The translations under genes were made by a program, and so were the position numbers. A DNA stretch of 64,000 nucleotides from positions 30,613 through 94,612 of the forward strand of contig ONSW01000002.1 of the NCBI GenBank assembly GCA_900320595.1, read 5' to 3'. Source of the DNA: an uncultured Eubacteriales bacterium. Its GTDB lineage: Bacteria; Bacillota; Clostridia; Oscillospirales; Oscillospiraceae. Below are positions 5,770 through 44,467 of this stretch, piece by piece; the first letter of the stretch is position 1; every line of letters starts with the position of its first letter. The notes beneath the pieces were generated by a model. That model was given only the letters and a program-made list of their open reading frames with translations. It was not told the origin of the DNA and searched no databases.

Positions 5770-5798
5770 AAGGAATACCTCCTAAAGTTAGTCATGAT

Positions 5799-5926: not shown

Positions 5927-5932
5927 ATTGCG

Positions 5933-6463: not shown

Positions 6464-6478
6464 ATTCCTCTCCCTCCG

Positions 6479-6793: not shown

Positions 6794-7265
6794 ATCTCCA
6801 CTCCTGTCGCGCCGCCTCGATTCCGAGCTCCGCTTCGATCCACGAAGCAAGCTTTGCCTCGGCATCCGCATTCCGTTCTGCCGTGATTAAAGCTCTTTCC
6901 GGTACCCAGACGCCTTCCTTCTTCCACGAGGCGCTGATCTCAACGCATTCGAGTTTCAGCCCGAGATCCGTGGCTTTGTCCATAATATATTCTTCGCACT
7001 CCTGTTCTATGACAAGTCTGCTGAGCCGATTACGGCTCTCCTCTGCGTTGCTTTCGATCACCGCCGCGGCATCGCGCGTCTCGGCCAGCGTAAGGGAATA
7101 ACCCTCCCAGTTTGTTGTCATCACAAGGGAGAGAAACATCGTCACAAGCGAGGCTGTTGCGCACAGAGATGCAATGCTACGCTCTTTTCCCTCCGGCAGC
7201 AGTATCAAAAGAATGCCGTAAACGATCGATGCGGCGCAGATCCCGCGCAGTGTGATCGCACTCAT
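6777..7265 (-). CDS. spoIIIAF: Stage III sporulation protein AF
   Basis: Membrane component of the SpoIIIA complex. The start is the ATG at 7265, overlapping the spoIIIAE stop by four bases; this gives 162 residues. Two transmembrane helices (about 5-25 and 30-50) precede a cytoplasmic region with a ring-building-type fold (ECEEYIMDKATDLGLKLECVEIS). SpoIIIAF normally has exactly this two-helix plus soluble-domain layout. It overlaps spoIIIAG by 17 bases. Confidence 0.9.
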   Translation of the reverse strand: MSAITLRGICAASIVYGILLILLPEGKERSIASLCATASLVTMFLSLVMTTNWEGYSLTLAETRDAAAVIESNAEESRNRLSRLVIEQECEEYIMDKATDLGLKLECVEISASWKKEGVWVPERALITAERNADAEAKLASWIEAELGIEAARQEWRYETDP

Positions 7266-8353
7266 GGGCTTACGGTTTTGATCGCCGCCATCAAAGAGAT
7301 AAACAGCATGATTGTCATGCATCCGAGTACGCCGAGCATCATCCCGAGCGCCGTTGAAAGATCGCCCAGCAGCATGGCAAGACGTTTTCCTTCGATTGCC
7401 GAAGCCACGGTGGCGCAAAGGCGGAACAGCAGCATCTTCACGCCGATCGCGAGAAACGGTGACAGGCAAAGCGCGCAGATACCGACGAGAGCATAGATCC
7501 CTGCCGAGTTTTTGATGACAGACGCACTTGCCAGAACGACAGACGCCGCATCGGACAAGATCCCTCCGACGACCGGCAGGGCGTTTGAAATGACCATCTT
7601 CCCTCCTTTTACCGCGATCGCATCTGCACCGGCCGTCAATGAACCGGTAAAGCCGATATACACGCTAATCACCGTTGTGAGAACGGTCATGCCTGTGATC
7701 GTGCACCATTTAACAACGGAAACCGCTGTATTCAGGACCGGATTTGGATACATGCTCCGACTCAAACATAAGGCAAGAAAGGCATAGATCAAAGGAACGG
7801 CGAGCCGAAGGAGCAGATCCATCAGGATATTCAGGCACAGCAGAACGGCAGCATACCTGGCGCCTGACGATACGACGGCGCCGCTGACCGCAGCCGCCGT
7901 ATAAACAACCGGCAGGACCGTTCCGGCATAACTGCCGAGCGTTCGGATCGTTTCGATCATCTGTCCCGCGAAGGAGTCGATCGAGCCCGTAACGGCAATT
8001 GCTGTCGCCGCGCAGGCACACAGCGAAACGACCTCCCTGATCCTTCCCTCCTGGCAAAGCGACTCTGCGATCGTGCATATGACAGCGATCATCATGATGC
8101 GAACGACATCTCTTGCTTCATCTTTCAATCGGTCTGCAGCTTGGCGTTTGGCGCGATCCACAAAGCGGCCGATCGCACCGCCGACGTCATAGCTTCCGTC
8201 TGTCACCAGCGATCCCGTGATTTCCCTTACGTCTGCAGGGAGCTCTTCTTCCGCGGCAGAAACGTCAAGCGGAAAATCCTCGGCATAGATGGGAGCGGCA
8301 AGAGCCAGGACCGCAGTCAATATAACAAGAAAGGCAGCAAAGCTTTTTTTCAA
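7262..8353 (-). CDS. spoIIIAE: Stage III sporulation protein AE
   Basis: Large polytopic protein of the SpoIIIA complex, 363 residues. The most likely start is a TTG at 8353 (MKKSFAAFLVILTAVLA). It has GGAG six bases upstream and overlaps the spoIIIAD stop as TTGA. The open frame continues upstream but that part is only a shadow of spoIIIAD. An N-terminal signal peptide cleaved near APIYAED is followed by about 100 extracellular residues and then seven or so hydrophobic helices. These carry family segments such as GSYAGTVLPVVYTA and NALPVVGGILSDA. Confidence 0.92.
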   Translation of the reverse strand: MKKSFAAFLVILTAVLALAAPIYAEDFPLDVSAAEEELPADVREITGSLVTDGSYDVGGAIGRFVDRAKRQAADRLKDEARDVVRIMMIAVICTIAESLCQEGRIREVVSLCACAATAIAVTGSIDSFAGQMIETIRTLGSYAGTVLPVVYTAAAVSGAVVSSGARYAAVLLCLNILMDLLLRLAVPLIYAFLALCLSRSMYPNPVLNTAVSVVKWCTITGMTVLTTVISVYIGFTGSLTAGADAIAVKGGKMVISNALPVVGGILSDAASVVLASASVIKNSAGIYALVGICALCLSPFLAIGVKMLLFRLCATVASAIEGKRLAMLLGDLSTALGMMLGVLGCMTIMLFISLMAAIKTVSP

Positions 8354-8736
8354 AGCATCTCTCCGATCGTATCGAGCATCATACGCAAAAGCGGCATTGC
8401 CGCAGCGATCGCGCACAGCACCCCTGTAAACTCTATGGCAGAAGCCGCTGCGCTCTGCGCCGCCTCGCGGCAGAGATCCGCGGTGACCCTTGCCGTGAAG
8501 GCCACGGCGCAGCATTTTATGACCGGCAGCAGATAACTGTCTCCTATGCCGTACAGGCTGCGCACCGTCTCTTTCAATTCGGCAACCGGTTTGAGCAGCG
8601 GAAAAGAGAGCATCAGGATTACGATCACCGTACACAGCCCGACTGCAAACGCGATCTCGGGATTGCTCCGCCGGATCATCAGCACCGCGCAAGCTGAAAT
8701 CAGCACAAGCCCGGATACCTTCAATAAGACTTCCAT
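8350..8736 (-). CDS. spoIIIAD: Stage III sporulation protein AD
   Basis: A 128-residue membrane protein with four hydrophobic helices (about 5-22, 27-50, 65-85 and 98-120) typical of SpoIIIAD. The segment MIRRSNPEIAFAVGLCTVIVIL is characteristic. It is related in sequence to SpoIIIAC and separated from it by four bases. Its stop overlaps the TTG start of spoIIIAE. Confidence 0.92.
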   Translation of the reverse strand: MEVLLKVSGLVLISACAVLMIRRSNPEIAFAVGLCTVIVILMLSFPLLKPVAELKETVRSLYGIGDSYLLPVIKCCAVAFTARVTADLCREAAQSAAASAIEFTGVLCAIAAAMPLLRMMLDTIGEML

Positions 8737-8740
8737 TTTC

Positions 8741-8935
8741 TTATAAATGAAAAAGTTCCTTGATCAGATCGAACAATTCACTGATTTTCTGCACGACCAT
8801 CATCAGCACGACAACAAGGGCCGCGATCGTCGTCATCAGGGCCTGTTCGTCCCGCCCCGACCGCTGAAGCAGAATATTCAACACGGCCACAAGGATCCCA
8901 ACGGCTGCCACTTTAAAGATAAGTTCAACGTCCAT
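8741..8935 (-). CDS. spoIIIAC: Stage III sporulation protein AC
   Basis: A 64-residue protein with two transmembrane helices (about 6-24 and 32-52) and the family sequence LNILLQRSGRDEQALM between them. The length equals that of known SpoIIIAC proteins. It lies between spoIIIAB (7 bases upstream) and spoIIIAD in the operon. Confidence 0.93.
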   Translation of the reverse strand: MDVELIFKVAAVGILVAVLNILLQRSGRDEQALMTTIAALVVVLMMVVQKISELFDLIKELFHL

Positions 8936-8942
8936 GTTTCTC

Positions 8943-9458
8943 CTATATCAGCAGGATTACCGCCATTGCGCCGAGCGAGAGCGGGATCCCGAAAGCGATG
9001 CGCCTGAAGTTGCCTTGTCTGTTTTCCAGTTGGGTGATCCTCTCTTCGATGGCGTGATCCGCTGCGTCGAGCGCTTCACACAGCGCTGCCGGATTGCTTC
9101 TGCCGAGAGCCTGTCCCAGCGGCAGGAAGATCTCCTTCTCCTGGTCCGAAAAAAGGAATAACCGCTTCCGGACGCAATCCTCCCAGATGACAGAAAACGG
9201 CTTTTCCCCAAGCCCGGACATCTCATCTCTCAATGTGCGAAAAAAGGAGCCGGCAATTTCATTTTCATTTTCGAATGCCAGAGTCTCGAAGCAACCCTTT
9301 AACGGGGCTCCTTTCTCTCCGATCTCACAGCTTAAATATGCAAGGCTTCTTTTCAGCGCTGCGAGCAGGCTGTACTGCTTCCGCTTTTCTTTCAGCAGCA
9401 TTCCGCTCGTCATCACGCTGGCTAAAAGGATCAAACAGGCTCCGCTCATCTTGATCAC
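8943..9458 (-). CDS. spoIIIAB: Stage III sporulation protein AB
   Basis: A 171-residue protein with a membrane helix at each end (about 4-20 and 155-171) and a helical soluble domain between. This resembles the GspF-like fold reported for SpoIIIAB, the predicted membrane partner of the SpoIIIAA ATPase. LKRSLAYLSCEIGEKGAPL and FLPLGQALGRSN are visible family segments. The ATG overlaps the spoIIIAA stop by four bases. Confidence 0.92.
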   Translation of the reverse strand: MIKMSGACLILLASVMTSGMLLKEKRKQYSLLAALKRSLAYLSCEIGEKGAPLKGCFETLAFENENEIAGSFFRTLRDEMSGLGEKPFSVIWEDCVRKRLFLFSDQEKEIFLPLGQALGRSNPAALCEALDAADHAIEERITQLENRQGNFRRIAFGIPLSLGAMAVILLI

Positions 9459-10303
9459 GCAAGACTCCTTATCTCATAATGCCGCTTTCCATCTTTCATT
9501 TGAATCAGAACCGCGTTTCGGAACACCCCTCCGTCTATGAGACGCCGATAGCCTTTCCTTCCCGTCAGGTCCTCTATGTCCTTCGCATGCGCCGTCGCGA
9601 TAAGTCCCGTTCCGCATCCGTAAACCTCCTCCATGGCCTGGATGTCCTCCGGAGAGGTGATCTCGTCTGCGGCTATGATTTCCGGCGTCATCGAGCGAAG
9701 GAGCAAAAGCGCGCCCGTGAGCTTATCGAGTCCGGATATGACGTCGCTGCATCGTCCGAGATCATAAACGTTTGCGGAAAGCTCGCCGCGTTCATCGATG
9801 ACGCCGATGCGTCTTCCCGAATCGGAAAGGCAGCGGATCACGTCCCGCAGAGCGGTCGTTTTTCCGCCGCCGGGCGGCGAAAGGATCAGCGTATTGGGGA
9901 AGGATGCTCCATTGAGTTTTGCCGCGATCGCCCCGCATACGCCGCGGCATTCCCGCGCAAGGCGCACGCAAAGTGAAGAATATCGCGCAAAGCCTGTCCC
10001 CCTTCTGTCCGGAGCTGTTTGTCCGCATACGCCGACGCGAAGACCCCCGGTACAGTAATACCCTTGTCTGATCGCCTGCGCAGCGCTGTACAAAGACGCG
10101 CCTGTCGCCTTTTGCAGGATCAGCAGCAGATCATCCTCCGAGACTTTTTCTATCGGCAGAAAATGCTCCTTCCCGCCATACACCAGCGATGGCGCTCTCC
10201 CGATCCGAAACCGCATCTCCTCTGGTCGAAATCCTCTGTGCCGTTCCACTGCCTGTACCATTTTTGCCGGAAGCAGCATCAGCAAATCATCAAATGCCTC
10301 CAT
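9455..10303 (-). CDS. spoIIIAA: Stage III sporulation protein AA (AAA ATPase)
   Basis: Secretion-type ATPase proposed to power the SpoIIIA-SpoIIQ feeding channel from the mother cell. The 282-residue protein has a Walker A motif PPGGGKTT at 143-150. A Walker B-like strand VIDERGEL and the segment PEIIAADEITS follow. It is the first gene of the eight-gene operon, which is complete here in the order AA, AB, AC, AD, AE, AF, AG, AH. Confidence 0.95.
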   Translation of the reverse strand: MEAFDDLLMLLPAKMVQAVERHRGFRPEEMRFRIGRAPSLVYGGKEHFLPIEKVSEDDLLLILQKATGASLYSAAQAIRQGYYCTGGLRVGVCGQTAPDRRGTGFARYSSLCVRLARECRGVCGAIAAKLNGASFPNTLILSPPGGGKTTALRDVIRCLSDSGRRIGVIDERGELSANVYDLGRCSDVISGLDKLTGALLLLRSMTPEIIAADEITSPEDIQAMEEVYGCGTGLIATAHAKDIEDLTGRKGYRRLIDGGVFRNAVLIQMKDGKRHYEIRSLA

Positions 10304-10321
10304 TTCCTCACTCCCGTGGAC

Positions 10322-10350
10322 AATATATGAACAGAGCGCGGAAATATTCT
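10322..10350 (-). promoter_or_regulatory. Sigma-E-like promoter of the spoIIIA operon
   Basis: On the minus strand AGAATATTT (10342-10350) is followed after 12 bases by CATATATT (10322-10329), about 20 bases before the spoIIIAA ATG. This matches the known mother-cell sigma-E pattern (-35 ending ATATT, -10 like CATACAAT) with the usual spacing. spoIIIA is a sigma-E operon in Bacillus. Confidence 0.7.
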
Positions 10351-10378
10351 TGAAAGTTATATCCCGTTGTGCTATGAT
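10350..10378 (+). promoter_or_regulatory. Sigma-A promoter for the gene at 10410
   Basis: TTGAAA (10350-10355), 17 bases, TATGAT (10373-10378). It is divergent from, and nearly overlaps, the spoIIIA sigma-E promoter. Confidence 0.75.
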
Positions 10379-10409
10379 TCAAAGGACAAAAAAACGGAGG
10401 ACGATCCCT

Positions 10410-10880
10410 ATGGCGATGAAAATCATGTGGGCTGCCGCTATTTTCTTCGGCGGCTGGCTTTTCTTCTATCTTTTTGGCAGACAGCTCGTTTTTAACTTTT
10501 CCGCCGCTTATCCGACGATCAAAAAAATGCGCGAGCAGGATAAAGAGCTGATTGCGCCCGGCGCAGACAAATACACCAACATTTCTGTTCTTGTCTGTGT
10601 TGTTACAATTGTGGTCGTGGCGGCTATCGTGATCCGCTTCTGCCCGCTTTACCTGATGATCAGCTGTGCCGTCGGCGCTGTTTCCGCCCTGCTCATGTAT
10701 CTGCCTCACGCAAAGGTCAGCGACCGCGGGACCTTTGATCTTTTCTGCTCGGCATATTCGCGTTTTGTGCCGGATGACGAGCTTCGTACCGCAATGTTCA
10801 ACCGCAAGCCGAAAGAGATCCGCAAGCGTGTTCGCGAAATGGGTCTAGATCCTGCCTTTGTTCCGATCTTTTCGGACTGA
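10410..10880 (+). CDS. Small membrane protein of unknown function
   Basis: I do not recognise a family. The start is the ATG at 10410 with GGAGG nine bases upstream, giving 156 residues. One hydrophobic helix spans about residues 4-20. Two closely spaced helices follow at about 65-80 and 83-105 (VCVVTIVVVAAIVI and YLMISCAVGAVSALLMYL). The C-terminal 45 residues are soluble and charged, with RKPKEIRKRVREMGLDPAF. It is a single-gene unit with its own promoter and terminator, divergent from spoIIIA. Nothing in the neighbourhood suggests a role. Confidence 0.75.
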   Translation: MAMKIMWAAAIFFGGWLFFYLFGRQLVFNFSAAYPTIKKMREQDKELIAPGADKYTNISVLVCVVTIVVVAAIVIRFCPLYLMISCAVGAVSALLMYLPHAKVSDRGTFDLFCSAYSRFVPDDELRTAMFNRKPKEIRKRVREMGLDPAFVPIFSD

Positions 10881-10897
10881 TGCACTCTTAATGATAA

Positions 10898-10932
10898 AAA
10901 AGTTCACGGTAGTGATACCGTGAACTTTTACT
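10898..10932. terminator. Bidirectional terminator
   Basis: The inverted repeat AAAAGTTCACGGTA-gtga-TACCGTGAACTTTT lies between two convergent genes. An A-run precedes it and a T-run follows it, so it can serve both strands. Confidence 0.85.
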
Positions 10933-10940
10933 TTATGTAT

Positions 10941-13370
10941 TTATTTGCAGAGCCTTCGGATCATCTTCAGGACGCGGCTCCCGCTGATCTCCAGCTGTCG
11001 GCGGGACAGCGTTCCGTCTTTCAGCGCTTTGATCACCGCCTTGTAATCTCCGCTGTTGCCCGGCATAAACAGATCTCCTCCCGCAGCCGCCACGTTCTGG
11101 GACTGGGCCTTTGGATAACGGCTTCCCATGTTTGGCATGTTCATGACCCAGTCGGTCATCACGATGCCCTCAAAGCCGTTTTCTGCGCGCAGGAAATCTT
11201 CTGTAAGCCCTCTCTGTTCCGAGCTGTGCACGCCGTTGATCAGATTATAGGACGTCATCAGCGCGCGAGGCTGCGATTCGCGGATGCAGAGCGCAAAGCC
11301 CTTCAGATAGATCTCTCGCAGCGTTCTTTCGCTTAAAATACTGTTGTTGAAATAGCGGTTGAGCTCCTGGTTGTTCGCTGCAAGATGCTTGATCGTCGTG
11401 CCGCATCCGGGATGCGCCTGAACGCCGTTTGTGATCGCCGCGGCCATGCGTCCGCTCAGGATCGGATCTTCGCTGAAATATTCAAAGTTTCGCCCGCAAA
11501 GGATGCTTCTGTGGATGTTCAGCGCAGGTGCAAGCCAGAGATGAACGCCGAATCGCTCCATTTCCTCTCCGACCAGGTCGCCGCAGAGCGCGGCGAAATC
11601 GAGATCCCAGCTCTGCGCGATCGCGGTTCCGATCGGGATCGCGGTGCAGTACTGATGCCGGATCTCTTTTCCCTTCGCCGTCTTTCCGCCGCCCATCACA
11701 AGCTTCGTCAGCGTTTTTGTGACAGGCCCCATCGCATCGAGGATGCTCTCGGGGAGCGTCGCGCCGCCGACTGTGCGGGCAAACTCTCCTTCCCTATAAT
11801 AGTCGCGGGAAAGGCGCAGACCCGCAGGACCGTCTGCCATGATAAGCGGCTTGAATTCTTTATTGGAAAGCTTTGAGGTCGTTTCACCCGCGGCGCCTGC
11901 CACATGGCTGGCCGCGTCACCGATCACCGAAGCAATCCCGCCTTTTTCCGAAAAAGCCCCGATGAACAGATAGGCAAGCTCGCTGTCCGAAAGTACTTTG
12001 ACCGCCTCGTCGACAGGCTCGTCTCTGTCATATACCGTCTCTTCCGTCACAATGCCGGAGGTATCGACACCGAAGCGCGGCAGATTCGGCGGCAGCTGCT
12101 CGCTTACCGTACGCTCATAACGCCGCTCTTTCAGATCCGTCTTTGGAATGATCGCTCTGACTTTTTTCAGAATGGCTTCCCCATCAAGGGAAAGGATCCC
12201 GATCGGCGCCGTGTCCGCACTGTTCGTACCGAGACGCAGGATATAATCGCCCGCTTCGAGGAAATAAACATGACGCTCTTCATCGAATGATGCAAGCTCT
12301 TTCAAATCAAAAGAAAGCGTAACAGCGGCGCTCTCTCCGGGAAAGATCTCCCCGGTCTTGGAAAAGGCGGCCAGATCCTGGAAGGGCTTTTTCAGTTTCC
12401 CCTCCGGAGCAGTCACATAGAGCTGAATGACCTCGCGGCCGGGACAATTCCCCGTGTTTGTCACTTCGGCATGAACGGTAACCGTTGTGCCATGCACACT
12501 AAGGGAAGATTCGCCCAGTTGAAAATCCGTATAAGAAATACCGAAGCCGAACGGAAAGAGCGGCTTTTTCCCGACCGTGTCAAAATAGCGGTAACCGACA
12601 TACACGCCCTCCGGATAAGTCGTATCCTCTTTGTTGCCGAACTCGATATTCGGGCAGTAATCTTCCCACGCAGCCCATGTCGTCGTCAGCTTGCCGGAGG
12701 GGTAAGTACGCCCCAGCAGCACGTCCGCCAGCGCGCTCCCCATCTCGGTGCCGAGCTGAGAGAGCACAAGGATATTCCCCACCGACATCACCGGGCTGAG
12801 ATCGACCGGACCGCCCGCATTGATAACAAGCATAAAATGATCGTACATCCGATCAAGTGTCAGAATATCCCGGATCTCGCTCTTCGTCAGAAGCACATCG
12901 CCAGCTACCGCTCTGCGGTCGTTTCCTTCGCCCGAAATGCGTGAAACGACATAGATCGCCGCATCGGCGCAGCAAACGACCGGGAGATCATATTCCGGCT
13001 CGGGCATAACAGCGCCCATCGCATACATGATCATATTCATGCCTGCTTCGTGCGCCTGCTGCTTCAGCGTCTTTTGAAACGCTTTTTTTGCTCTCGCCCG
13101 TTCACGGTCGTAGGCGTCGAGCCAGTTGCCGGTCGTGACGGTGAACCCTGCGTCGAGCAAGCCCTGCTCGATGTTGACAGAAAAGCGGGAATTGACCTCG
13201 CCCGAGCCTGTTCCGCCCTTTACGCTGTTACGCACACCGCACCCGTACGCCGCGATCGACGAGGCATAGGGCAGCGGGAACGCGCCGTTTTTTTTCAGCA
13301 GTACCATGCAGCCGCCCAGTTCTTTGCGAAGGCGTGAAAGGTGCTCTTTTTCATACGGATACAGTTCCAT
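10941..13370 (-). CDS. Glycoside hydrolase family 3 protein with swapped domain order
   Basis: Likely a beta-glucosidase-type enzyme, 809 residues from the ATG at 13370 (AAAGGAG upstream). The usual GH3 order is inverted. The alpha/beta sandwich (C-type) domain comes first (about 1-280), then a fibronectin III-like domain (about 285-380, TVHAEVTNTGNCPGREVIQLYV). The (beta/alpha)8 barrel comes last (about 430-800). The barrel carries APALNIHRSILCGRNFEYFSE, IKHLAANNQE and the nucleophile motif IVMTDW near residue 740. This inversion is known in some rumen and clostridial GH3 enzymes. There is no signal peptide, so it is probably cytoplasmic and acts on imported oligosaccharides. Substrate cannot be read from sequence. 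Confidence 0.9.
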   Translation of the reverse strand: MELYPYEKEHLSRLRKELGGCMVLLKKNGAFPLPYASSIAAYGCGVRNSVKGGTGSGEVNSRFSVNIEQGLLDAGFTVTTGNWLDAYDRERARAKKAFQKTLKQQAHEAGMNMIMYAMGAVMPEPEYDLPVVCCADAAIYVVSRISGEGNDRRAVAGDVLLTKSEIRDILTLDRMYDHFMLVINAGGPVDLSPVMSVGNILVLSQLGTEMGSALADVLLGRTYPSGKLTTTWAAWEDYCPNIEFGNKEDTTYPEGVYVGYRYFDTVGKKPLFPFGFGISYTDFQLGESSLSVHGTTVTVHAEVTNTGNCPGREVIQLYVTAPEGKLKKPFQDLAAFSKTGEIFPGESAAVTLSFDLKELASFDEERHVYFLEAGDYILRLGTNSADTAPIGILSLDGEAILKKVRAIIPKTDLKERRYERTVSEQLPPNLPRFGVDTSGIVTEETVYDRDEPVDEAVKVLSDSELAYLFIGAFSEKGGIASVIGDAASHVAGAAGETTSKLSNKEFKPLIMADGPAGLRLSRDYYREGEFARTVGGATLPESILDAMGPVTKTLTKLVMGGGKTAKGKEIRHQYCTAIPIGTAIAQSWDLDFAALCGDLVGEEMERFGVHLWLAPALNIHRSILCGRNFEYFSEDPILSGRMAAAITNGVQAHPGCGTTIKHLAANNQELNRYFNNSILSERTLREIYLKGFALCIRESQPRALMTSYNLINGVHSSEQRGLTEDFLRAENGFEGIVMTDWVMNMPNMGSRYPKAQSQNVAAAGGDLFMPGNSGDYKAVIKALKDGTLSRRQLEISGSRVLKMIRRLCK

Positions 13371-37372: not shown

Positions 37373-37400
37373 ATGGTGAGGCGGAAAGGAAGTGACGCAT

Positions 37401-37958
37401 ATGGAAGACAGCGCGATTATCGACCTGTTCTTTGAGCGCTCGGAGCAGGCCGTTGCGGAGCTGGAACAAAAATACGGCGCCGCCGTCAGAAAGACAGCGG
37501 GCAATCTTCTTCGTGACCGTCAGGATGCCGAGGAATGCGCAAACGATACCTATCTCAGAGTCTGGAACAGTATTCCGCCTCAGCGTCCCGACTTTTTGGG
37601 CAGCTTCGTTTGCCGTATCACCCGCAACCTGGCCGTGTCGATGCTGCGCAGCAAAACGGCGGCAAAGCGAAACCGCGAGCTTGATCTCGTCCTCGACGAG
37701 CTGGAGGCCTGTATTCCCTCCCCCTTCAATGTGGAGGCCGATTATGAGCTAAAAGAACTTACAGAGGAGATCAACTGTTTTCTCTCGCGTCTTTCGTACT
37801 TCGACCGTTTTTTGTTCGTCCGGCGGTATTGGTACGCCGATTCCGTCGGTGATATCGCCGCGGAAATGCAGATACCCGAAAACCGTGTCTCCGTGCGTCT
37901 TTTCCGCCTCCGTGAGAAATTACGGAAGACTTTGCAAAAGGAGGGCTTGCTTGCATGA
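37401..37958 (+). CDS. ECF-type RNA polymerase sigma factor 1
   Basis: A 185-residue sigma-70 family factor of the extracytoplasmic-function type. Region 2 is seen as DRQDAEECANDTYLRVWNSI and FLGSFVCRITRNLAV. Region 4 covers about 120-180, with YFDRFLFVRRYWYADSVGDIAAEM and a recognition helix near VSVRLFRLREKLRKTL. The ATG at 37401 is preferred over a GTG three codons earlier by comparison with the paralogue at 38904 (both begin MEDxAI). It overlaps the downstream anti-sigma gene by four bases. Confidence 0.92.
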   Translation: MEDSAIIDLFFERSEQAVAELEQKYGAAVRKTAGNLLRDRQDAEECANDTYLRVWNSIPPQRPDFLGSFVCRITRNLAVSMLRSKTAAKRNRELDLVLDELEACIPSPFNVEADYELKELTEEINCFLSRLSYFDRFLFVRRYWYADSVGDIAAEMQIPENRVSVRLFRLREKLRKTLQKEGLLA

Positions 37959-38767
37959 AACGGGAAAATCTGTTCCGGGCGATCGCCGATATTGACGACC
38001 GCTTTATCACCGAGGCGATCCGATATGCTCCCCCGTCTGCATCCGGCTCTTCGGGAAGGATCGTACACTTGAACAAGAAAAAAATCATCTCCTTCGCGCT
38101 GGCCGCCGTTCTGCTCCTCGCTCTCGGTGTCACGGCCTTCGCTGTATTTTCGACCTATTCCACCCGTGTCCCCGAGCCGGAGGAAACCTTCCGGATCAGG
38201 TGGGAAGAAAACGCCAGCGGCTACATTGATTGGTCAGATGCCAAGCTTGCCGTGACGTTCTCCGAAACAGCCGAAAGCAAAGAAATTGAGTTTCGCCCCG
38301 GATGGCTGCCTGAAGAACTTGCATCGCTTAAAACCGATACATGGATAGATCGCCTGACTGCCGAGCAGTTTGCGGACAAATACCCTGATATGACCGCCAG
38401 CCAGCCGTTGCTGATCGAGACCTATTCCATGTCGATGTTCAATGACGGCGGCGCACTGTTGCTTCTCTATTACACGCCGGAGGATATCATTGAGGAACAC
38501 TGGGACGAGAACGATGTCGACGTCATGCGGTTCCATTGTACAGAGATACTGGAGGCAAACGCCTACGCCCCTGAGCGGAAGCTTGAGCAAGACATTATCC
38601 TGATGTCCAATTCCGAGGAAGGCTGGGTCGTTCGTCTTTGCGGGGAAATCGGTATGGACAAGCTTATCAGAGTCGCCAAGAATCTGGAGATTCGCGAGAC
38701 CGGAAACGTGCTGACATACGACGATTTTGAAAGCCACTACACCTTCATGGACGGCGGCGTAGGGTGA
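37955..38767 (+). CDS. Membrane-anchored anti-sigma-like protein with DUF4367-type domain
   Basis: A 270-residue protein with a short cytoplasmic N-terminus (1-45). One membrane helix follows (about 48-68, IISFALAAVLLLALGVTAFAV), then an extracytoplasmic domain of about 195 residues. The outer domain (FRPGWLPEELASL, IRVAKNLEI) resembles DUF4367, often seen in proteins encoded after ECF sigma factors in Clostridia. The four-base overlap with the sigma gene supports a regulator pair. A zinc-binding anti-sigma motif is absent from the short N-terminus, so the inhibition mode is unclear. Confidence 0.8.
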   Translation: MKRENLFRAIADIDDRFITEAIRYAPPSASGSSGRIVHLNKKKIISFALAAVLLLALGVTAFAVFSTYSTRVPEPEETFRIRWEENASGYIDWSDAKLAVTFSETAESKEIEFRPGWLPEELASLKTDTWIDRLTAEQFADKYPDMTASQPLLIETYSMSMFNDGGALLLLYYTPEDIIEEHWDENDVDVMRFHCTEILEANAYAPERKLEQDIILMSNSEEGWVVRLCGEIGMDKLIRVAKNLEIRETGNVLTYDDFESHYTFMDGGVG

Positions 38768-38779
38768 CCACGTATAACG

Positions 38780-38815
38780 GCAGGGACTGTCTTTCCGACA
38801 GTCCCTGTTTTTTTT
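38780..38815 (+). terminator. Terminator of pair 1
   Basis: CAGGGACTGTC-tttcc-GACAGTCCCTG followed by TTTTTTTT, 12 bases after the stop codon. Confidence 0.93.
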
Positions 38816-38838
38816 GTGGTATAATTTTATGGTGGATT

Positions 38839-38869
38839 GTGAAACCTTCTCCATCTTTTTTCGTGTATA
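38839..38869 (+). promoter_or_regulatory. ECF-type promoter of sigma/anti-sigma pair 2
   Basis: GTGAAACCTTCTCC with -35-like GAAAC, 16 bases, then CGTGTATAT. The AAC-N16-CGT arrangement is typical of ECF promoters. It aligns base for base in spacing with the block before pair 1. Confidence 0.6.
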
Positions 38870-38903
38870 TGGGTGAGAGCTCTTCAAACAAAGGAGGTAC
38901 AGT

Positions 38904-39461
38904 ATGGAAGACGCAGCAATCGTTGATCTGTACTGGCAGCGTTCCGATAGGGCCATATCGGAAACAGAAAAGAAATACGGCCGATATTGCCACTCGATCG
39001 CCTTTCACATCTGCGGATCGGGCGAGGACGCGGAGGAATGCGTGAATGACACCTATCTGCGCGCCTGGAACCGCATGCCGGAAGAACGGCCAAATATGCT
39101 TGGTACCTTTCTCGGCCGTATCACACGAAATCTCGCTCTTGACCGCATCAAGGCGAGCAAAGCCGCCAAGCGCGGCGGAGGCCAGACTCTCCTTGCGCTC
39201 GAAGAACTGGAAGAGTGCGTTCCCGGTCATTCGAATCCGGAGACCGAGCTGGAGCAAAAGGAACTGGAAGCGGTGATCGGGCATTTCGTCGCCGCCTTGC
39301 CAAAGACGGAAAAGCTTGTTTTCGTTTTGCGCTATTTTTATTTGGCACCGATCGACGAAATCGCCGAGAAGCTGCACTTCAGCTCGGGTAAAGTCAAAAG
39401 CATGCTGTTCCGCAGCCGAAGAAAGCTGCGGGCATGTCTGGAAAAGGAGGGTCTGATGTGA
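38904..39461 (+). CDS. ECF-type RNA polymerase sigma factor 2
   Basis: A 185-residue paralogue of sigma factor 1, with DAEECVNDTYLRAWNRMPEERPNML-type region 2 positions and FLGRITRNLALDRI. Region 4 contains KTEKLVFVLRYFYLAPIDEIAEKL and the recognition helix SSGKVKSMLFRSRRKL. AAAGGAGG precedes the ATG. It ends in TGA overlapping a GTG start of the next gene. The length equals factor 1, consistent with duplication of the whole sigma/anti-sigma unit. Confidence 0.93.
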   Translation: MEDAAIVDLYWQRSDRAISETEKKYGRYCHSIAFHICGSGEDAEECVNDTYLRAWNRMPEERPNMLGTFLGRITRNLALDRIKASKAAKRGGGQTLLALEELEECVPGHSNPETELEQKELEAVIGHFVAALPKTEKLVFVLRYFYLAPIDEIAEKLHFSSGKVKSMLFRSRRKLRACLEKEGLM

Positions 39462-40309
39462 ACGCAATGAGGCTTCTGCGCGCTATGGACGGCATTCATG
39501 AGGAGGATGTCATCATGGCAGGAAAACAGTATTTCAACAGTACACGGAAAGTTCCGATCCGGGCAAAGCGGCTCGTCGCCTTTGCCATTGCCGCCGTCTT
39601 GATGCTATCACTCGGTATCGCGGCCTATGCGACCTACAACGCGATCTCGACGCCACAGGCAGCGGAAAAGGTCGCACAGGAGCAGCTTGCGCAGTGGCGC
39701 GAGCTCGGTCTTCTGCCGCCTGACGCGGTATTTGAGGGGAAGGCGGATCAGATCGTCGAGATCGAGGGATATCCTGGCGGCGCTGCCTGGTTCGGCCGGT
39801 TTTTCCCGCACAGCTTCGACGTTCGCTGGTATTCCGGCGATCGAAAATATCGCTGCAACGTGAACATCGACACGCTTGAAGGAAAGATCCAGTATGGGAA
39901 CTTCACCGCCTTCCCGGATGAAAATGACGTGCCGACCGGTGAAATCGAGCTCACCGTCGGACCGGATGGGGAAACAAAGACCTTTTATTACTATGAGATT
40001 TTTGATGATCTGGTCGGCTCAGAGCAGACCGTGGACGGCTTCTGCTCGGCTCTGACCACCTACTGGGGCTTTAACGGCTACCGTCTGGCTGACCGGGGCG
40101 ATCCGATCTATACCGAGGAATATGCCTCTAATTTCGGCGCTGTCGACGGCTCGACACGTCTCCTTGATGTGCCGTGGGATAATAGCGGACACAATTTCCT
40201 CGCGGTCTATTTTGACGGAGATGCGGATCAGGCGCCGATGTATCTTGATCTGATGCAGTACCCGGGATACGTCGGGATGGACGTCGGTATCCATCATCCG
40301 GTCGGATAA
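39458..40309 (+). CDS. Membrane-anchored anti-sigma-like protein, pair 2
   Basis: A 283-residue product from a GTG at 39458 that overlaps the sigma stop (GTGA), with AAAAGGAGG seven bases upstream. It has a short cytoplasmic N-terminus, a membrane helix (about 37-55, LVAFAIAAVLMLSLGIAAYA) and a 225-residue outer domain. The outer domain is not clearly alike to that of pair 1; it has IEGYPGGAAWFGRFF and a repeated aromatic/acidic character. Function as anti-sigma is inferred from position and topology. Confidence 0.75.
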   Translation: MNAMRLLRAMDGIHEEDVIMAGKQYFNSTRKVPIRAKRLVAFAIAAVLMLSLGIAAYATYNAISTPQAAEKVAQEQLAQWRELGLLPPDAVFEGKADQIVEIEGYPGGAAWFGRFFPHSFDVRWYSGDRKYRCNVNIDTLEGKIQYGNFTAFPDENDVPTGEIELTVGPDGETKTFYYYEIFDDLVGSEQTVDGFCSALTTYWGFNGYRLADRGDPIYTEEYASNFGAVDGSTRLLDVPWDNSGHNFLAVYFDGDADQAPMYLDLMQYPGYVGMDVGIHHPVG

Positions 40310-40354
40310 AACAAAGCGCGTCTCTTCAAGTAAGAAGAGACGCGCTTTGTTTCT
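40310..40354. terminator. Bidirectional terminator
   Basis: AACAAAGCGCGTCTCTT-caagtaag-AAGAGACGCGCTTTGTTT between convergent genes, with a stem of 16 or more base pairs. Confidence 0.92.
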
Positions 40355-41091
40355 TATCTTCTTTTCAGCAAAAACGGCATCCCCTCGCCGTAGGGCGAAC
40401 CGCGGAGCCCCTTTTCCACCCGCTCGCGCATCGCGCCGCGATCGGCAACCGCCATACCCGCGATCCGGTCAAGCCCAAAATCCAGGAGTTCCGGGCAGAA
40501 CGGGACGGAGGGGCCAGTCAGGATCGTGAGCGCATTTTGGCTCAGCTCAAGAAGATGTGGCAGCGTCTTGTTGATAAGCGAGCTCCCTGTGATGATCACA
40601 AGGTCGCATTGCGGCAGGATCCAGTCGCAGGCACTGTCCGGATAGTCGCCCTCCAGCGGCGCACGTTCGAGGATGTACACCGCTTTTGCCTGCTCCTGCA
40701 AGCCCTTCGGACCATGCATATGGCCGATGAGCGCGACGGTTTTTCCTCTCAGATCGATCCCGTCTGTGTAAAAAACATCCATCGAGACCCCGACTCCGCT
40801 GGCCTCTATCCGCTCCGGCGTGTTATAAAACGCGTTCGCCGCCGCAAGTCCGAGCGACGCCTCCTCGAGGTTCCAGCTCTTCACGGCCTGCGCCGCCTCA
40901 GCCAGGCTCAGTCCCTCCAGCGTCGGATAAAGCGGCGGTATCGTGCTGCCCGCGGTAAACATCGCAATGCCGGAGGAAGACGCCGTCTCGGCAAACGCCC
41001 AGCGCTCGCCGGATATTGTCTTTTTAATTGTTTCTCCGCCCGCTACGCCGGCGCAAAGCGCGTCATAGAGCGCAAAATATCCTTTTCTCAT
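40354..41091 (-). CDS. DUF4213/DUF364 family protein (copy 1)
   Basis: A 245-residue protein of the putative heavy-metal-chelation family DUF364 with its N-terminal DUF4213 part. The start is the ATG at 41091 with GGGGAG upstream. Visible blocks are SWNLEEASLGLAAANAFYN, GKTVALIGHMHG, CDLVIITGSSLINKTLPHLLELS and LTGPSVPFCPELLDFG. These align with the second copy at 53640 (SWNMEEASEAFAAVNAFYN, CDLVIITGSAAINKTMPRLLELS). The active chemistry of the family is unproven. Here it is a single gene with its own promoter, away from the metal cluster. Confidence 0.85.
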   Translation of the reverse strand: MRKGYFALYDALCAGVAGGETIKKTISGERWAFAETASSSGIAMFTAGSTIPPLYPTLEGLSLAEAAQAVKSWNLEEASLGLAAANAFYNTPERIEASGVGVSMDVFYTDGIDLRGKTVALIGHMHGPKGLQEQAKAVYILERAPLEGDYPDSACDWILPQCDLVIITGSSLINKTLPHLLELSQNALTILTGPSVPFCPELLDFGLDRIAGMAVADRGAMRERVEKGLRGSPYGEGMPFLLKRR

Positions 41092-41123
41092 ATGGATCAT
41101 CTCCCCTGCTGCGGATCGTTTTT

Positions 41124-41152
41124 ATCATATCACAGCATCTGACGGATTTCCA
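41124..41152 (-). promoter_or_regulatory. Promoter of DUF364 copy 1
   Basis: Minus strand TGGAAA (41147-41152), 17 bases, TATGAT (41124-41129). Confidence 0.5.
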
Positions 41153-41156
41153 TAGA

Positions 41157-41190
41157 AAAACGGGATGCCTCCCTTGGGAAGCATCCCGTT
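41157..41190 (-). terminator. Terminator of the amino-sugar operon
   Basis: AACGGGATGC-ctcccttgggaa-GCATCCCGTT with an inner CCC/GGG pair and a minus-strand TTTTT run, 14 bases after the glmM stop. Confidence 0.9.
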
Positions 41191-41204
41191 CGATTTATAC
41201 CGGA

Positions 41205-42551
41205 TCAGGCCAGGTGGCCCTTTTGTTCAATGACGGCAATGACGCTGTCAACATACTTTTCGCAGATCTCCTTTGTGCCGGCCTCGACCATCACGCGGAT
41301 GACAGGCTCGGTGCCGCTCTCACGAACAAGGATACGGCCGGTATCGCCCAGCTCCTCAGCCACCTTTGCGACGGCCGCCTGCACGTCGGGGTCGTTCTGT
41401 GCGTCGGGCTTGGACTTAACGCGGACGTTTTTCAGAACCTGCGGGTAAAACACGACGGGTGCCGCGAGCTCGCTCATGGGCTTTTCCTTTGCCAGCATGA
41501 CTTCCATCAGCTTCAGCGCCGTCAGGATGCCGTCGCCGGTCGTCTCGTACTTGAGGAAGATCGTGTGTCCGCTCTGCTCGCCGCCGAGACGGTTGCCGGT
41601 CTGGACCATGTTCTCATAGACATACTTGTCGCCGACCTTGGTCTTGTCATATTCGATCCCGACCTTGTCGAGCGCTTTATAAAGGCCGAAGTTGGACATA
41701 ACGGTCGTGACGACCTTGTTGTTGAGAAGCTTGCCGCGCTCCTTCATATAGAGACCGTAGATGTACAGCACATGGTCGCCCGTGACGACGTTGCCCTTTT
41801 CATCCACGCACAGGCAGCGGTCCGCGTCACCGTCAAAGGCAAAGCCAATATCGAGGCCGTTGTCAACGACATACTTCTGCAGATGCTCGATATGGGTACT
41901 GCCGCAGTTCGTGTTGATGTTATAGCCGTCCGGCTCGGCGTTGATGACATAGGTCTTGGCGCCGAGCGCGTCGAACACGGCCTTTGCGATCTGCCAGGAG
42001 GCGCCGTTGGCACAGTCGAGACCGACCTTGACGTCCTTGAAGCTGTATTTCGACATAGAGATCAGATGACCGATATAGCGGTTGCGTCCGGCGACGTAGT
42101 CGACCGTGCGGCCGATGGCGTCGCGCTCGGAAACCGGGATCTCCAGCTTGCCGTCGATATAGTCCTCGACCTCGAGGATGGTCTCCTCGTCCATCTTTTC
42201 CCCGTTGCCGTTGAGCAGCTTGATACCGTTGTCATAGTAAGGATTGTGGGATGCGGAGATCATGATGCCGCAGTCGAAATCGTCCACACGCGTGATATAC
42301 GCGACAGAGGGCGTGGTCGTTACATGCATGATATAGGCGTCGGCGCCAGAGGCCATCAGACCCGTGCAGAGCGCGTATTCAAACATATAGGACGAGCGGC
42401 GGGTATCCTTGCCGATGACGACCTTTGCCTTTTTGTTCAGCCGGGCGCCATAGTACCAACCGAGGAAACGGCCGATCTTGATGGCATGGTCAAAGGTCAG
42501 GTCTTTATTGGCTTCACCGCGAAAGCCGTCCGTTCCGAAATACTTGCCCAT
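41205..42551 (-). CDS. glmM: Phosphoglucosamine mutase
   Basis: Converts glucosamine-6-phosphate to glucosamine-1-phosphate for UDP-GlcNAc synthesis. The 448-residue alpha-D-phosphohexomutase starts MGKYFGTDGFRGEAN. It has the phosphoserine loop ISASHNP near residue 100, the magnesium-binding DGDADR, the sugar-binding GGEQSGH and the phosphate-binding RESGTEPVIRVM. The FGTDGFRG start and GEQSG are typical of GlmM rather than ManB/PGM. It begins one base after nagB, last in an operon led by a glmS ribozyme. Confidence 0.95.
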   Translation of the reverse strand: MGKYFGTDGFRGEANKDLTFDHAIKIGRFLGWYYGARLNKKAKVVIGKDTRRSSYMFEYALCTGLMASGADAYIMHVTTTPSVAYITRVDDFDCGIMISASHNPYYDNGIKLLNGNGEKMDEETILEVEDYIDGKLEIPVSERDAIGRTVDYVAGRNRYIGHLISMSKYSFKDVKVGLDCANGASWQIAKAVFDALGAKTYVINAEPDGYNINTNCGSTHIEHLQKYVVDNGLDIGFAFDGDADRCLCVDEKGNVVTGDHVLYIYGLYMKERGKLLNNKVVTTVMSNFGLYKALDKVGIEYDKTKVGDKYVYENMVQTGNRLGGEQSGHTIFLKYETTGDGILTALKLMEVMLAKEKPMSELAAPVVFYPQVLKNVRVKSKPDAQNDPDVQAAVAKVAEELGDTGRILVRESGTEPVIRVMVEAGTKEICEKYVDSVIAVIEQKGHLA

Positions 42552-42552
42552 C

Positions 42553-43344
42553 TTACAGCCTCTCTTTTCTCTCGATGTCGAGGAAATACTTATACGTGTC
42601 GACGGTCAGCTCGCCGCAGGCCGCTTCATCGCAGGCGATGATTGCGCCGTTGTGCATCTGCAGAGCGCTGCAGGTCCACTTGTGGCTGACGTTACCCTCG
42701 ACCGTGGCCGCGAGCGCACGCGCCTTGTTGTGGCCGGAGATGAGCACGAGGACTTCCTTGGAATCGGTAACGGTGCCGATGCCGACGGACAGCGCCTGTG
42801 CCGGGACCTTTTCGGGGTCTCCGCCGAAGAAGCGGCTGTTGACAATGCGGGTGTCGGTCGTCAGATCGCGCAAACCGGTTCTGGACGTAAGGGACGTAAA
42901 GGGCTCGTTGAACGCCAGGTGGCCGTCAACACCGATACCGCCCATGAAGAGGTCGATGCCGCCGTAGGAGGCGATCTTTTCCTCATAGCGGGCACACTCG
43001 CCCACGGGATCATCGGTCATGCCGTTGAGGATATTGATATTCTCCGGCTTCATATCGACCAGATGATCGAAGAAGTTGTCGTGCATGAAGTACCAGTAGC
43101 TCTGGTCATGCTCGTGCGGCAGGCCGAGATACTCGTCCATGTTGAAGGTCACAACGTTGGCAAAGGAAACCTCGCCCGCCTTGTTCAGGCGGATCAACTC
43201 CTTGTACACGCCGATCGGGGAAGACCCCGTCGGAAGGCCGAGGATAAAGGGGCGGTCTTCCTTGTGCGCGTTGATCTTCGCGGCGATGTAGTGTGCGGCC
43301 CAAAGGCTCATTTTATCGTAATTGTCCTGAATAACGACTCTCAT
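42553..43344 (-). CDS. nagB: Glucosamine-6-phosphate deaminase/isomerase
   Basis: Interconverts glucosamine-6-phosphate and fructose-6-phosphate plus ammonia; the reaction is reversible. The 263-residue protein shows LGLPTGSSPIGVYKEL near 35-50, TFNMDEYLGL with the catalytic aspartate, MGGIGVDGHLAFNEP and a SALQMHNG end. This is the NagB pattern, not the glutamine-dependent GlmS, since no glutaminase domain is present. Its place between a hexapeptide protein and glmM, behind a glmS ribozyme, suggests it may run in the aminating direction to make glucosamine-6-phosphate. That direction is inference. Confidence 0.95.
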   Translation of the reverse strand: MRVVIQDNYDKMSLWAAHYIAAKINAHKEDRPFILGLPTGSSPIGVYKELIRLNKAGEVSFANVVTFNMDEYLGLPHEHDQSYWYFMHDNFFDHLVDMKPENINILNGMTDDPVGECARYEEKIASYGGIDLFMGGIGVDGHLAFNEPFTSLTSRTGLRDLTTDTRIVNSRFFGGDPEKVPAQALSVGIGTVTDSKEVLVLISGHNKARALAATVEGNVSHKWTCSALQMHNGAIIACDEAACGELTVDTYKYFLDIERKERL

Positions 43345-43379: not shown

Positions 43380-44039
43380 TTATTCGTGCTTTTCGACGAT
43401 GACGCCGTTGTCCTTGAAAATGCTGTTCTCGGGGACGACGCCGCGGACGCAGGACGTGGGGTAGATGTTGCTGTGACGACCCACGACAGTGCCGGGATTG
43501 CAGACGCTGTTGCAGCCTACCTCGACATAATCGCCGAGCATGGCGCCGAATTTCTTGATGCCGGTCGCGATCTGCTCCGTACCGTTGTGAACGATGACGA
43601 GCTTTTTGTCAGACTTCACATTGGACGTAATGGAGCCCGCTCCCATATGGGAGTAATATCCGAGGATCGAGTCGCCGACATAGTTGTAGTGCGGCGTCTG
43701 GACGTGATCGAACAGAATCACGTTTTTCAGTTCCACGCTGTTTCCGACGACACAGTTCGCGCCGACGAGCGCGCTGCCGCGGATAAAAGCGCAGTGCCGC
43801 ACCTCGGTATCGGGGCCGATGATGCAGGGCGCACCGAGATAAGCGCTCGGAAAGACCTTGGCCGTCTTATGTACCCAGACATGCTCGGATACCTCCTCAT
43901 AGTCCTCCCCCAGCGTCGGGCCGAGCTGAAGGATCAGTTCCTTGATCCCCTTCAGCGCTTCCCAGGGATAGGTGAATTGCAGGAGATACTCTTTGGCCAG
44001 CGTATGGTCCAGGTCATAGAGATCTTTTATCGTATACAT
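43380..44039 (-). CDS. Left-handed beta-helix (hexapeptide) protein, GlmU C-terminal-like
   Basis: A 219-residue hexapeptide-repeat protein with an N-terminal helical part (1-50) and a beta-helix from about 55 to 205. Repeat blocks include VFPSAYLGAPCIIGPDTEVRH, RGSALVGANCVVGNSVEL and AMLGDYVEVGCNSVCNPGTVVG. The segments resemble the acetyltransferase half of GlmU and clostridial proteins annotated as UDP-GlcNAc pyrophosphorylase-like. The nucleotidyl-transfer domain of GlmU is absent. As first gene of an operon with nagB and glmM it may acetylate glucosamine-1-phosphate, but the catalytic residues were not verified. Confidence 0.82.
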   Translation of the reverse strand: MYTIKDLYDLDHTLAKEYLLQFTYPWEALKGIKELILQLGPTLGEDYEEVSEHVWVHKTAKVFPSAYLGAPCIIGPDTEVRHCAFIRGSALVGANCVVGNSVELKNVILFDHVQTPHYNYVGDSILGYYSHMGAGSITSNVKSDKKLVIVHNGTEQIATGIKKFGAMLGDYVEVGCNSVCNPGTVVGRHSNIYPTSCVRGVVPENSIFKDNGVIVEKHE

Positions 44040-44067
44040 GAAATACTCCTTATTTAAAATGATCCCA

Positions 44068-44100
44068 CCGGAACCGCGTCAAAAATTATCGCGTTTCCGG
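44068..44100 (-). other. Stem-loop between ribozyme and start codon
   Basis: On the minus strand CCGGAAACGCG-ataatttttga-CGCGGTTCCGG, an 11-pair stem ending about 20 bases before the ribosome binding site (GGAG at 44046-44049). There is no T-run after it, so it is not a terminator. It could act with the ribozyme or protect the 5' end of the processed message. Confidence 0.6.
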
Positions 44101-44112
44101 CACTGGACGGTA

Positions 44113-44247
44113 TCGGAAGAGCCTCTGTTACAGTGTTGATTCTGCTTTTTCTTCTCTTCCTGACGGCTTACCGCATCAGCCGTGACAGCATCCGCCGAGT
44201 CTTTCGACAACTGCCATTCCTCGTCACCCTTTATCGGGCCAGGCGCT
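44113..44247 (-). ncRNA. glmS ribozyme (glucosamine-6-phosphate-activated)
   Basis: Self-cleaving RNA that uses glucosamine-6-phosphate as cofactor. The minus-strand sequence has every conserved block in order: AGCGCCTGG at the cleavage site (between A 44247 and G 44246), the short P2 CCC-gataaa-GGG, then TGACGAGG and TGGCAGTTGTCGAAAG. CTCGGCGGATGCTGTC follows, then P3 (ACGGC-tgatgcggtaa-GCCGT) and P4 (GGAAGAG...CTCTTCC). It aligns almost without gaps to the published Thermoanaerobacter and Bacillus ribozymes as I remember them. Unusually, the next genes are a hexapeptide protein, nagB and glmM rather than glmS. Confidence 0.93.
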
Positions 44248-44285
44248 AATAACGTTCCCAGCTTCTCCTTTCGAGGAGCGTTATT
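44248..44285 (-). other. Hairpin directly 5' of the ribozyme
   Basis: Minus strand AATAACG...CGTTATT encloses a smaller CTCCT-cgaa-AGGAG hairpin. The outer stem abuts the cleavage site and may insulate or position the ribozyme. Confidence 0.6.
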
Positions 44286-44293
44286 TTACTCAT

Positions 44294-44327
44294 AGAGAAC
44301 GATTACCGCAAAAGGCATCGTTTCTCT
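44294..44327 (-). other. Leader hairpin near the transcription start
   Basis: Minus strand AGAGAAACGAT...ATCGTTCTCT, a ten-pair stem with one bulge, beginning a few bases after the predicted transcription start. No T-run follows. Confidence 0.5.
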
Positions 44328-44336
44328 TTGCGAATT

Positions 44337-44365
44337 ATTATAGTCTCAGCACGGGTAAAAATCAA
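44337..44365 (-). promoter_or_regulatory. Promoter of the ribozyme-controlled amino-sugar operon
   Basis: Minus strand TTGATT (44360-44365), 17 bases, perfect TATAAT (44337-44342). The resulting 5' leader is about 290 bases long. Confidence 0.85.
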
Positions 44366-44436
44366 CAAATATCTTTGTCGCAAGCACAGAAGCTTGTGGT
44401 CAATCGAAAACAATATCAGCAAAATACACAAAATCT

Positions 44437-44467
44437 GCGCCGGAAACTGTTTCCGGCGCAGATCGGA
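44437..44467 (-). terminator. Terminator of the DUF1015 gene
   Basis: ATCTGCGCCGGAAA-ct-GTTTCCGGCGCAGAT on the minus strand, followed by TTTTGTGTATTTT. Confidence 0.9.

Follow-up and report, generated by a model that had tools for sequence, protein, structure and literature searches.

Gene Content and Transcription Signals of the Locus

We analyzed a 64,000-nucleotide stretch of DNA (here, the window) from an uncultured Oscillospiraceae bacterium, whose genome is available as a 2.07-Mb assembly of 107 contigs (92.65% complete, 3.36% contaminated). Its minus strand carries a glmS ribozyme followed by three genes, hex, nagB, and glmM. In transcriptional order, the features are as follows; handles beginning with G, C, and L denote genomes, contigs, and loci.

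44432..44464, minus: terminator-like hairpin 3' of the upstream DUF1015 gene (scan and folding)
44337..44365, minus: sigma-70-like promoter, TTGATT-17-TATAAT (consensus scan, 10/12 matches)
44248..44285, minus: leader hairpin P0 (44285-44279 pairs with 44254-44248; AAGGAG loop at 44270-44265)
44105..44258, minus: glmS ribozyme (RF00234, 60.9 bits, cut-off 37; covariation in 24 nagB-type sequences including the window's)
43380..44039, minus: hex, GlmU-C-like hexapeptide acetyltransferase, 219 aa (archaeal-type GlmU model, C-terminal half)
42553..43344, minus: nagB, glucosamine-6-phosphate deaminase/isomerase, 263 aa (TIGR00502, 372 bits, cut-off 236.9)
41205..42551, minus: glmM, phosphoglucosamine mutase, 448 aa (TIGR01455, 547 bits, cut-off 447.55)
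41158..41191, minus: operon-end terminator-like hairpin, then TTTTT (folding of 41140-41200, -29.6 kcal/mol)

The three genes are separated by gaps of 35 and 1 bases. Since a terminator-like hairpin follows the upstream DUF1015 gene, the operon is probably a separate transcription unit, and this hairpin (44464-44432) together with the promoter (44365-44337) likely marks its start. A promoter ahead of the ribozyme had been proposed in the first-pass annotation, and the consensus scan returned one, a result that is weak by itself given 2 sites in 801 bases against 1.0 in shuffled sequences. The strong hairpin at 41191-41158 emerged from folding and is missing from the consensus terminator scan. 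Directly after it lies a DUF4213/DUF364 gene (putative heavy-metal chelation; 40354-41100, minus). Further along, at 37392-40309 (plus), two tandem ORF pairs resemble, judging from their translations, an ECF-type sigma factor with a membrane-anchored partner, and the pairs appear to be paralogous.

Profile matches bear out all three gene assignments of the first-pass annotation. Hex matches the C-terminal half of the archaeal-type GlmU model (TIGR03992) at 7.2e-41, below the curated two-domain cut-off, and is the best GlmU C-terminal match of its own genome (45 bits, versus 25 and 22 for the next ones). Its alignment with PDB 5z09/2ggo, which we take to be ST0452, covers the C-terminal half of that protein and includes the motif PH..YVGDS; unlike that archaeal-type protein, hex stands alone, with no nucleotidyltransferase half. 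The motif, which presumably holds the catalytic histidine, is kept in 40/40 hex matches. No bifunctional GlmU scored over the cut-off in any of the 11 genomes searched (control 9/14). The gene behind the C-terminal match (model positions ~297-434) was established for six of these 11, and in each (the window's genome, G000, and G004, G036, G060, G199, and G220) it is the operon's hex.

The window NagB has PDB relatives with matches to 4.3e-100 and, aligned with the Escherichia coli enzyme, keeps the catalytic motifs FNMDEY and DGH.AFNEP. If NagB runs towards glucosamine-6-phosphate (GlcN6P), the operon would encode successive steps: fructose-6-phosphate (F6P) to GlcN6P by NagB in reverse, to glucosamine-1-phosphate (GlcN1P) by GlmM, and to N-acetylglucosamine-1-phosphate (GlcNAc1P) by hex.

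A Conserved glmS Ribozyme Precedes the Operon

The RF00234 match spans 44105-44258 (minus) and the full length of the model (1-167), scoring 60.9 bits (gathering threshold 37; E-value 1.5e-11). It is the sole match in the genome, all contigs having been searched. The complete ribozyme that the first-pass annotation had drawn at 44113-44247 (minus) holds up, its start agreeing with the cleavage site predicted from the RF00234 alignment, between A44247 and G44246. We compared it with other ribozymes found ahead of nagB operons (nagB-type) and of glmS (glmS-type). The core motifs A/GCGCC (the slash marks the predicted cleavage site), ACGAGG, TCGA, and TCGGCGG, which we take to form the cleavage site and catalytic core, are invariant in 23 aligned sequences; in another alignment of 24, they are invariant save for one A-to-G change in TCGA (L144).

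To this conservation is added covariation. We used 24 of 49 nagB-type ribozymes, picked from the set that lacks a long P3 insert (G178 was counted once, as L105). In a six-helix structure, 96.4% of the cells are paired, and 16 of 30 pairs, in P1, P2, P3, and P4, show changes on both sides. The covariation score is 0.441, compared with 0.215 for shuffled and at most 0.145 for slid versions, and none of 500 shuffles reached it; we drew the structure manually, guided by the Rfam layout and the same sequences, and it is therefore favored over the slid versions. The strands of the putative double-pseudoknot core hardly vary, and covariation is uninformative there. Score, conservation, and covariation together rule out a chance covariance match, and on this evidence the element at the locus is a genuine and conserved glmS ribozyme.

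The nagB-linked ribozymes score from 33.6 to 73.4 bits, and the glmS-linked ones of the family up to 95.4. Low values come from G004 (42.4) and G131 (33.6, below the cut-off); degeneration is unlikely in these two, given that, by eye, both have a lengthened P3 with a P4-like segment beyond it. In nagB-type ribozymes, P1 is mostly short and the end loop of P4 is unlike that of the glmS-type.

The leader contains a further element. In the window and 46 other nagB-type leaders (47 of 49, with G036 and the duplicate L105 omitted), the 3' arm of the P0 hairpin ends exactly at the cleavage site, and 31/47 have a helix of at least 6 pairs. The arms covary: the longest helix averages 6.34 for a leader's own arms versus 5.26 for cross-paired arms, with none of 300 permutations as high. 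A Shine-Dalgarno-like GGAGG is found in 31/47 nagB-type leaders, and 22 of the 31 have it at -19 or -20; among glmS-type leaders, 14/17 have AGGAG (13% expected), at -26 to -30 in 12. A translated upstream ORF behind this motif is not a general feature, as an ATG lies 4-11 bases after AGGAG in 5/17 glmS-type and 0/49 nagB-type leaders.

The nagB-type thus shares with the ribozyme of glmS leaders its core sequence, cleavage site, and P1/P2/P3/P4 layout and, we presume, its ligand, GlcN6P, and its output, mRNA decay. It differs in controlling nagB, hex, and glmM and in having a leader hairpin that abuts the cleavage site. Instead of the canonical feedback unit, in which the ribozyme is followed by glmS, the order here is ribozyme-hex-nagB-glmM, and the RNA seems a typical member of its family put to a new use.

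The Linkage of Ribozyme and nagB Recurs in Related Genomes

The glmS ribozyme, a metabolite-dependent self-cleaving riboswitch, lowers expression at high GlcN6P (PMC11477304), and two reviews link it with glmS or with GlcN6P-forming genes (PMC11477304, PMC10043782). Among the matches listed, we recognized no published glmS ribozyme on nagB, a comparison that left out the two exceptions in McCown et al. 2011. All but two of the 463 glmS ribozymes in that survey reportedly lie in glmS leaders.

Within the family, a ribozyme is present in 27 of 200 genomes sampled (26 over the cut-off). Seventeen of these loci lie before glmS and ten, including the window's, before a nagB operon that has nagB first or runs hex-nagB-glmM (window) or glmM-hex-nagB (G036). 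For eight of the nine relatives, NagB is 87-92% identical to the window's; the NagB of G036 is distant (35% identity).

We then scanned a genome collection by NagB alignment and took the best 80 loci among the matches listed. The ribozyme core signature lies 5' of the operon in 39 of these 80; signature matches within hex (L143) or far from the operon (L112, L118, and L147) were set aside. RF00234, glmS, and nagA were searched in the genomes of 50 of the 80 loci, namely all 39 with the signature and 11 of the 41 without. RF00234 matched in 39/39 of the former (38 over the cut-off), every one at the operon, and in 0/11 of the latter. Since L105 and G178 are one genome, 48 distinct genomes carry a ribozyme-nagB locus. 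The comparison across relatives that the first-pass annotation had called for thus returned a recurrent linkage.

Gene order varies among the 39 loci, in counts that include some contigs ending early. The genes sought 3' of the ribozyme read nagB-hex-glmM in 20, nagB in 8, hex-nagB-glmM in 4, hex-glmM-nagB in 2, nagB-glmM in 2, and nagB-hex in 1, and one operon each reads hex-nagB-glmM-glmS and glmM-nagB-glmS. The two operons with glmS as the last gene found come from G227 and G238. Hence nagB is the first sought gene after the ribozyme in 31/39 and the sole one found in 8. That the linkage has outlasted such reshuffling points to selection, and judged from these genomes the nagB operon is a genuine target of the glmS ribozyme, and a conserved one. 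A quick NagB tree with weak support shows clustering of the ribozyme label (14 changes versus 31.7 in shuffles), which is compatible with one or with several origins of the linkage.

One genome, G226 (L137), has two glmS ribozymes (C22:2945-3098 and C11:26064-26215), one on nagB and one on glmS. This pair and the glmS genes inside the operons of G227 and G238 are expected if both enzymes supply GlcN6P.

Among the same best 80 loci of the matches listed, a ruminant sample is named in 32 titles, and a further 35 carry RUG/RUI codes, which we take to be rumen series; the ammonia-rich gut habitat suggested in the first-pass annotation agrees with these largely ruminant-gut titles. One locus (L125) belongs to Ruminococcaceae bacterium P7, an isolate by title, with a ribozyme-nagB-hex-glmM operon.

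A Ribozyme-Free glmS among Nitrogen Genes

The first-pass annotation had described the operon as standing instead of glmS, which is true of the genes 3' of the ribozyme; elsewhere in the genome, on contig C71, there is an intact glmS (model positions 1-607, 775.5 bits), at which RF00234 finds no match. The operon's description as a GlmS-independent route is not supported as worded, as this genome keeps a full glmS, as do 36 of the 48 ribozyme-nagB genomes. At C71 (L055) 2659-11649, glmS lies among genes for a type III glutamine synthetase (GSIII), NAD synthase, an Amt-PII fusion, and asparagine synthase, with a putative CTP synthase, judged from sequence, further off. Contamination is an unlikely source of this contig: G200, whose NagB (L101) shares 95% identity with that of the window, carries on a 296-kb contig a glmS-GSIII-AsnB-LysR-CTP synthase run that is 93-97% identical to that of C71, with neither Amt-PII nor NAD synthase in the stretch fetched.

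We examined 20 further glmS regions besides L055, using neighbor-gene queries taken from the window's own genome. G109 (no ribozyme), G226 (own ribozyme on glmS), and G227 (glmS in the operon) were dropped, and G220, one of whose two glmS genes adjoins GSIII, was counted once, so that 17 of the 36 ribozyme-nagB genomes with glmS entered the count. GSIII or Amt lies within 3 kb of the ribozyme-free glmS in 10/17 and is absent nearby in the other 7, compared with 0/17 for all ribozyme-led glmS loci of the family sample (2 with short flanks), two of which have a synthetase ~3.5-4 kb off; the contrast (Fisher 3e-4) is indicative. This association of glmS with GSIII or Amt is what leads us to propose a division of labor by ammonia supply.

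Evidence on the Direction of NagB

A catabolic nagAB operon pairs nagB with nagA. We found no nagA match in the window's genome (control positive 14/14). The family search covered 54 chosen genomes: all 27 with the ribozyme, those with a type I nagB, and those lacking glmS at >=90% completeness, where types I and II are split by TIGR00502 score (>=358 versus <=317 bits). NagA is over the cut-off in 3/10 family ribozyme-nagB genomes (G174, G181, and G090) and 16/39 signature-positive ones, or 19/48 overall. Yet none of the 20 genomes that have both (16 of the loci genomes; G181, G174, and G090; and the ribozyme-free G073) places nagA on the same contig as its ribozyme-led or type I nagB, whereas in 15 of 22 other genomes with both the two genes are at most 2 kb apart. 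Both tallies were made by hand, and the contrast (Fisher 1.9e-6) is indicative, given related genomes and contig breaks. The biosynthetic setting claimed in the first-pass annotation is thus in keeping with the operon partners and the placement of nagA. That annotation had taken a low covariance score, or an intact glmS behind its own ribozyme together with a nagA partner, as counting against its reading; the window's genome shows neither.

The 36 genomes with glmS over the cut-off comprise 7/10 of the family and 30/39 of the others, with one duplicate (G181 is counted from its E-value of 8.1e-181); two more, G221 and G232, have large glmS fragments. Three of the 48 (G004, G131, and G215) have neither glmS nor nagA over the cut-off and no large glmS fragment. 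G004 is 94% complete and belongs to the window's genus, and G131 is given as 100% complete. G004 and G215 each have one PF02378 protein. In G131 there is no match for glmS, nagA, or the PF02378 PTS EIIC, and it is the clearest example, all three entries being absent at once from a genome called complete. The PTS search covered the PF02378 type; mannose-type PTS can also bring in glucosamine, and G131 may import it in this way.

Absence of glmS has to be read with care. Seven of the 39 genomes have neither glmS nor a large fragment of it; six of these seven carry nagA and could therefore live on scavenged GlcNAc. Within the family, glmS is below the cut-off or missing in 44/200 genomes, 41 of which have no ribozyme-nagB operon. 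Three genomes at >=90% completeness (G002, G126, and G177) have no glmS or nagA over the cut-off and no nagB, so that unseen routes or assembly gaps must exist and absence alone is weak evidence. Many glmS-less family genomes have nagA and nagB; dependence on amino sugars, or the use of other routes, may be widespread in this family.

We also compared the sequence of NagB itself. In the window protein, SRTGLR replaces the SRTRIK of E. coli, with G, R, and D at positions 158, 160, and 161, and SRTG.R is found in 94/94 NagB sequences, the window's included, with or without the ribozyme. In E. coli, R158, K160, and T161 of SRTRIKT presumably bind the activator GlcNAc6P. The substitution fits the loss of a catabolic signal without deciding direction, and the catalytic residues do not tell direction either. 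The genome also encodes a second NagB-like protein (L092, C20, 5726-6448; TIGR00502 113.7 bits, below the cut-off), with FAVCEF for FNMDEY and GDNARVGFNEP for GVDGHLAFNEP, which is probably not an active deaminase. With such motifs, and no nagA match in the genome, we discarded it as a catabolic partner.

Comparison with Known NagB Systems

The E. coli nagBAC operon and the type II nagB genes of the family that adjoin nagA have the same NagB family and catalytic motifs as the window. In contrast to catabolic nagAB operons, the window operon has no nagA neighbor, has biosynthetic partners, carries SRTG.R for SRTRIK, and has a reversed feedback sign.

Anabolic use of NagB has a precedent in Giardia lamblia, which is without GlmS and whose GlcNAc6P-insensitive NagB makes GlcN6P from F6P and ammonia, with a Km for ammonium of 19-23 mM (PMC4281351). 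The likeness lies in NagB as the maker of GlcN6P; Giardia differs in being a eukaryotic parasite, and the portions of that paper drawn on here mention no ribozyme or operon. Akkermansia muciniphila, a gut bacterium without GlmS, resembles the present case in having a GlcNAc6P-insensitive NagB. It differs in that it requires GlcNAc or GalNAc, and its NagB (Km of 41 mM for ammonium, a high value like that of Giardia, and 5.5 mM for F6P) was judged unable to aminate physiologically; such ammonium levels are said there to occur in the gut, with the Km for F6P rather high (PMC5902328). As both of these enzymes are GlcNAc6P-insensitive, a lost allosteric motif does not prove direction.

Proposed Mechanism and Alternative Explanations

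We consider it likely that a glmS ribozyme has been recruited to a GlcNAc1P operon, where it exerts product feedback on an ammonia-fed NagB, with a glutamine-fed GlmS alongside. At low GlcN6P, the mRNA would stay intact and NagB would join F6P with free ammonium to form GlcN6P, which GlmM would convert to GlcN1P and the hexapeptide protein would acetylate to GlcNAc1P. As GlcN6P builds up, it would act as the cofactor for self-cleavage, the operon message would be destroyed, and synthesis would stop; loss of the message would also prevent NagB from degrading the product of GlmS. Most ribozyme-nagB bacteria, the window's included, keep the second, glutamine-fed route, with a glmS that is usually ribozyme-free and often has a GSIII or ammonium transporter gene nearby. 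NagB would serve when ammonia is plentiful, and glutamine synthetase with GlmS when it is scarce. The ribozyme's most probable role at this locus is to place ammonia-dependent formation of GlcN6P by NagB under product feedback.

We extend this proposal more tentatively, with the case for it falling just short of evenly balanced, to a group of Clostridia from the ruminant gut: ribozyme-controlled reverse NagB could be the sole source of GlcN6P in bacteria such as G131 and elsewhere alternate with a GlmS coupled to glutamine synthetase and to the transport of ammonium, much like the pair of GDH and GS/GOGAT, here for amino-sugar nitrogen.

Other explanations read the same evidence differently. 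NagB might be catabolic, as it ordinarily is, with the ribozyme tuning GlmM and the acetyltransferase and nagB riding along as a passenger of the operon. The silence of the catalytic residues on direction would allow this, and nagA is indeed present in 19/48 ribozyme-nagB genomes. Yet a passenger would hardly be the first sought gene in 31/39 loci and alone in 8, nagA keeps off the contig of nagB where both are present, and G131 and G004 have neither nagA nor glmS. Moreover, for a deaminase a switch that turns off at high GlcN6P works in the wrong direction, since the enzyme would be off when its substrate abounds. We therefore find this explanation unlikely. Less probable still is that NagB works near equilibrium in both directions, as a homeostatic valve, and that the ribozyme keeps futile cycling with GlmS in check. 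The reaction is fundamentally reversible (PMC4281351) and both enzymes are present in most genomes, but the operon is kept in the glmS-less G004, G131, and G215, and such a valve leaves unexplained why glmM and hex share the ribozyme.

Finally, the ribozyme could be a decayed relic of a lost glmS leader that no longer regulates. The lower scores of nagB-linked ribozymes, against glmS-linked ones, are what decay would produce; the conserved core, the strong covariation, and the position ahead of varied gene orders are not, and in G004 and G131 the low values accompany a lengthened P3 that is followed by a P4-like segment. We regard a relic as very improbable.

In the reading we prefer, product feedback on a NagB running towards GlcN6P, a conserved second target would show what principle the ribozyme serves, namely regulation of GlcN6P supply, whichever enzyme provides it, and a ribozyme on nagB would give a rare regulatory argument for the direction of NagB in vivo. 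The isolate Ruminococcaceae bacterium P7, which carries the operon, makes the idea look testable at the bench. If it is true, bacteria have a de novo entry to amino sugars other than GlmS, which would matter for antibiotics directed at GlmS and at the ribozyme and for the way rumen bacteria use their ammonia.
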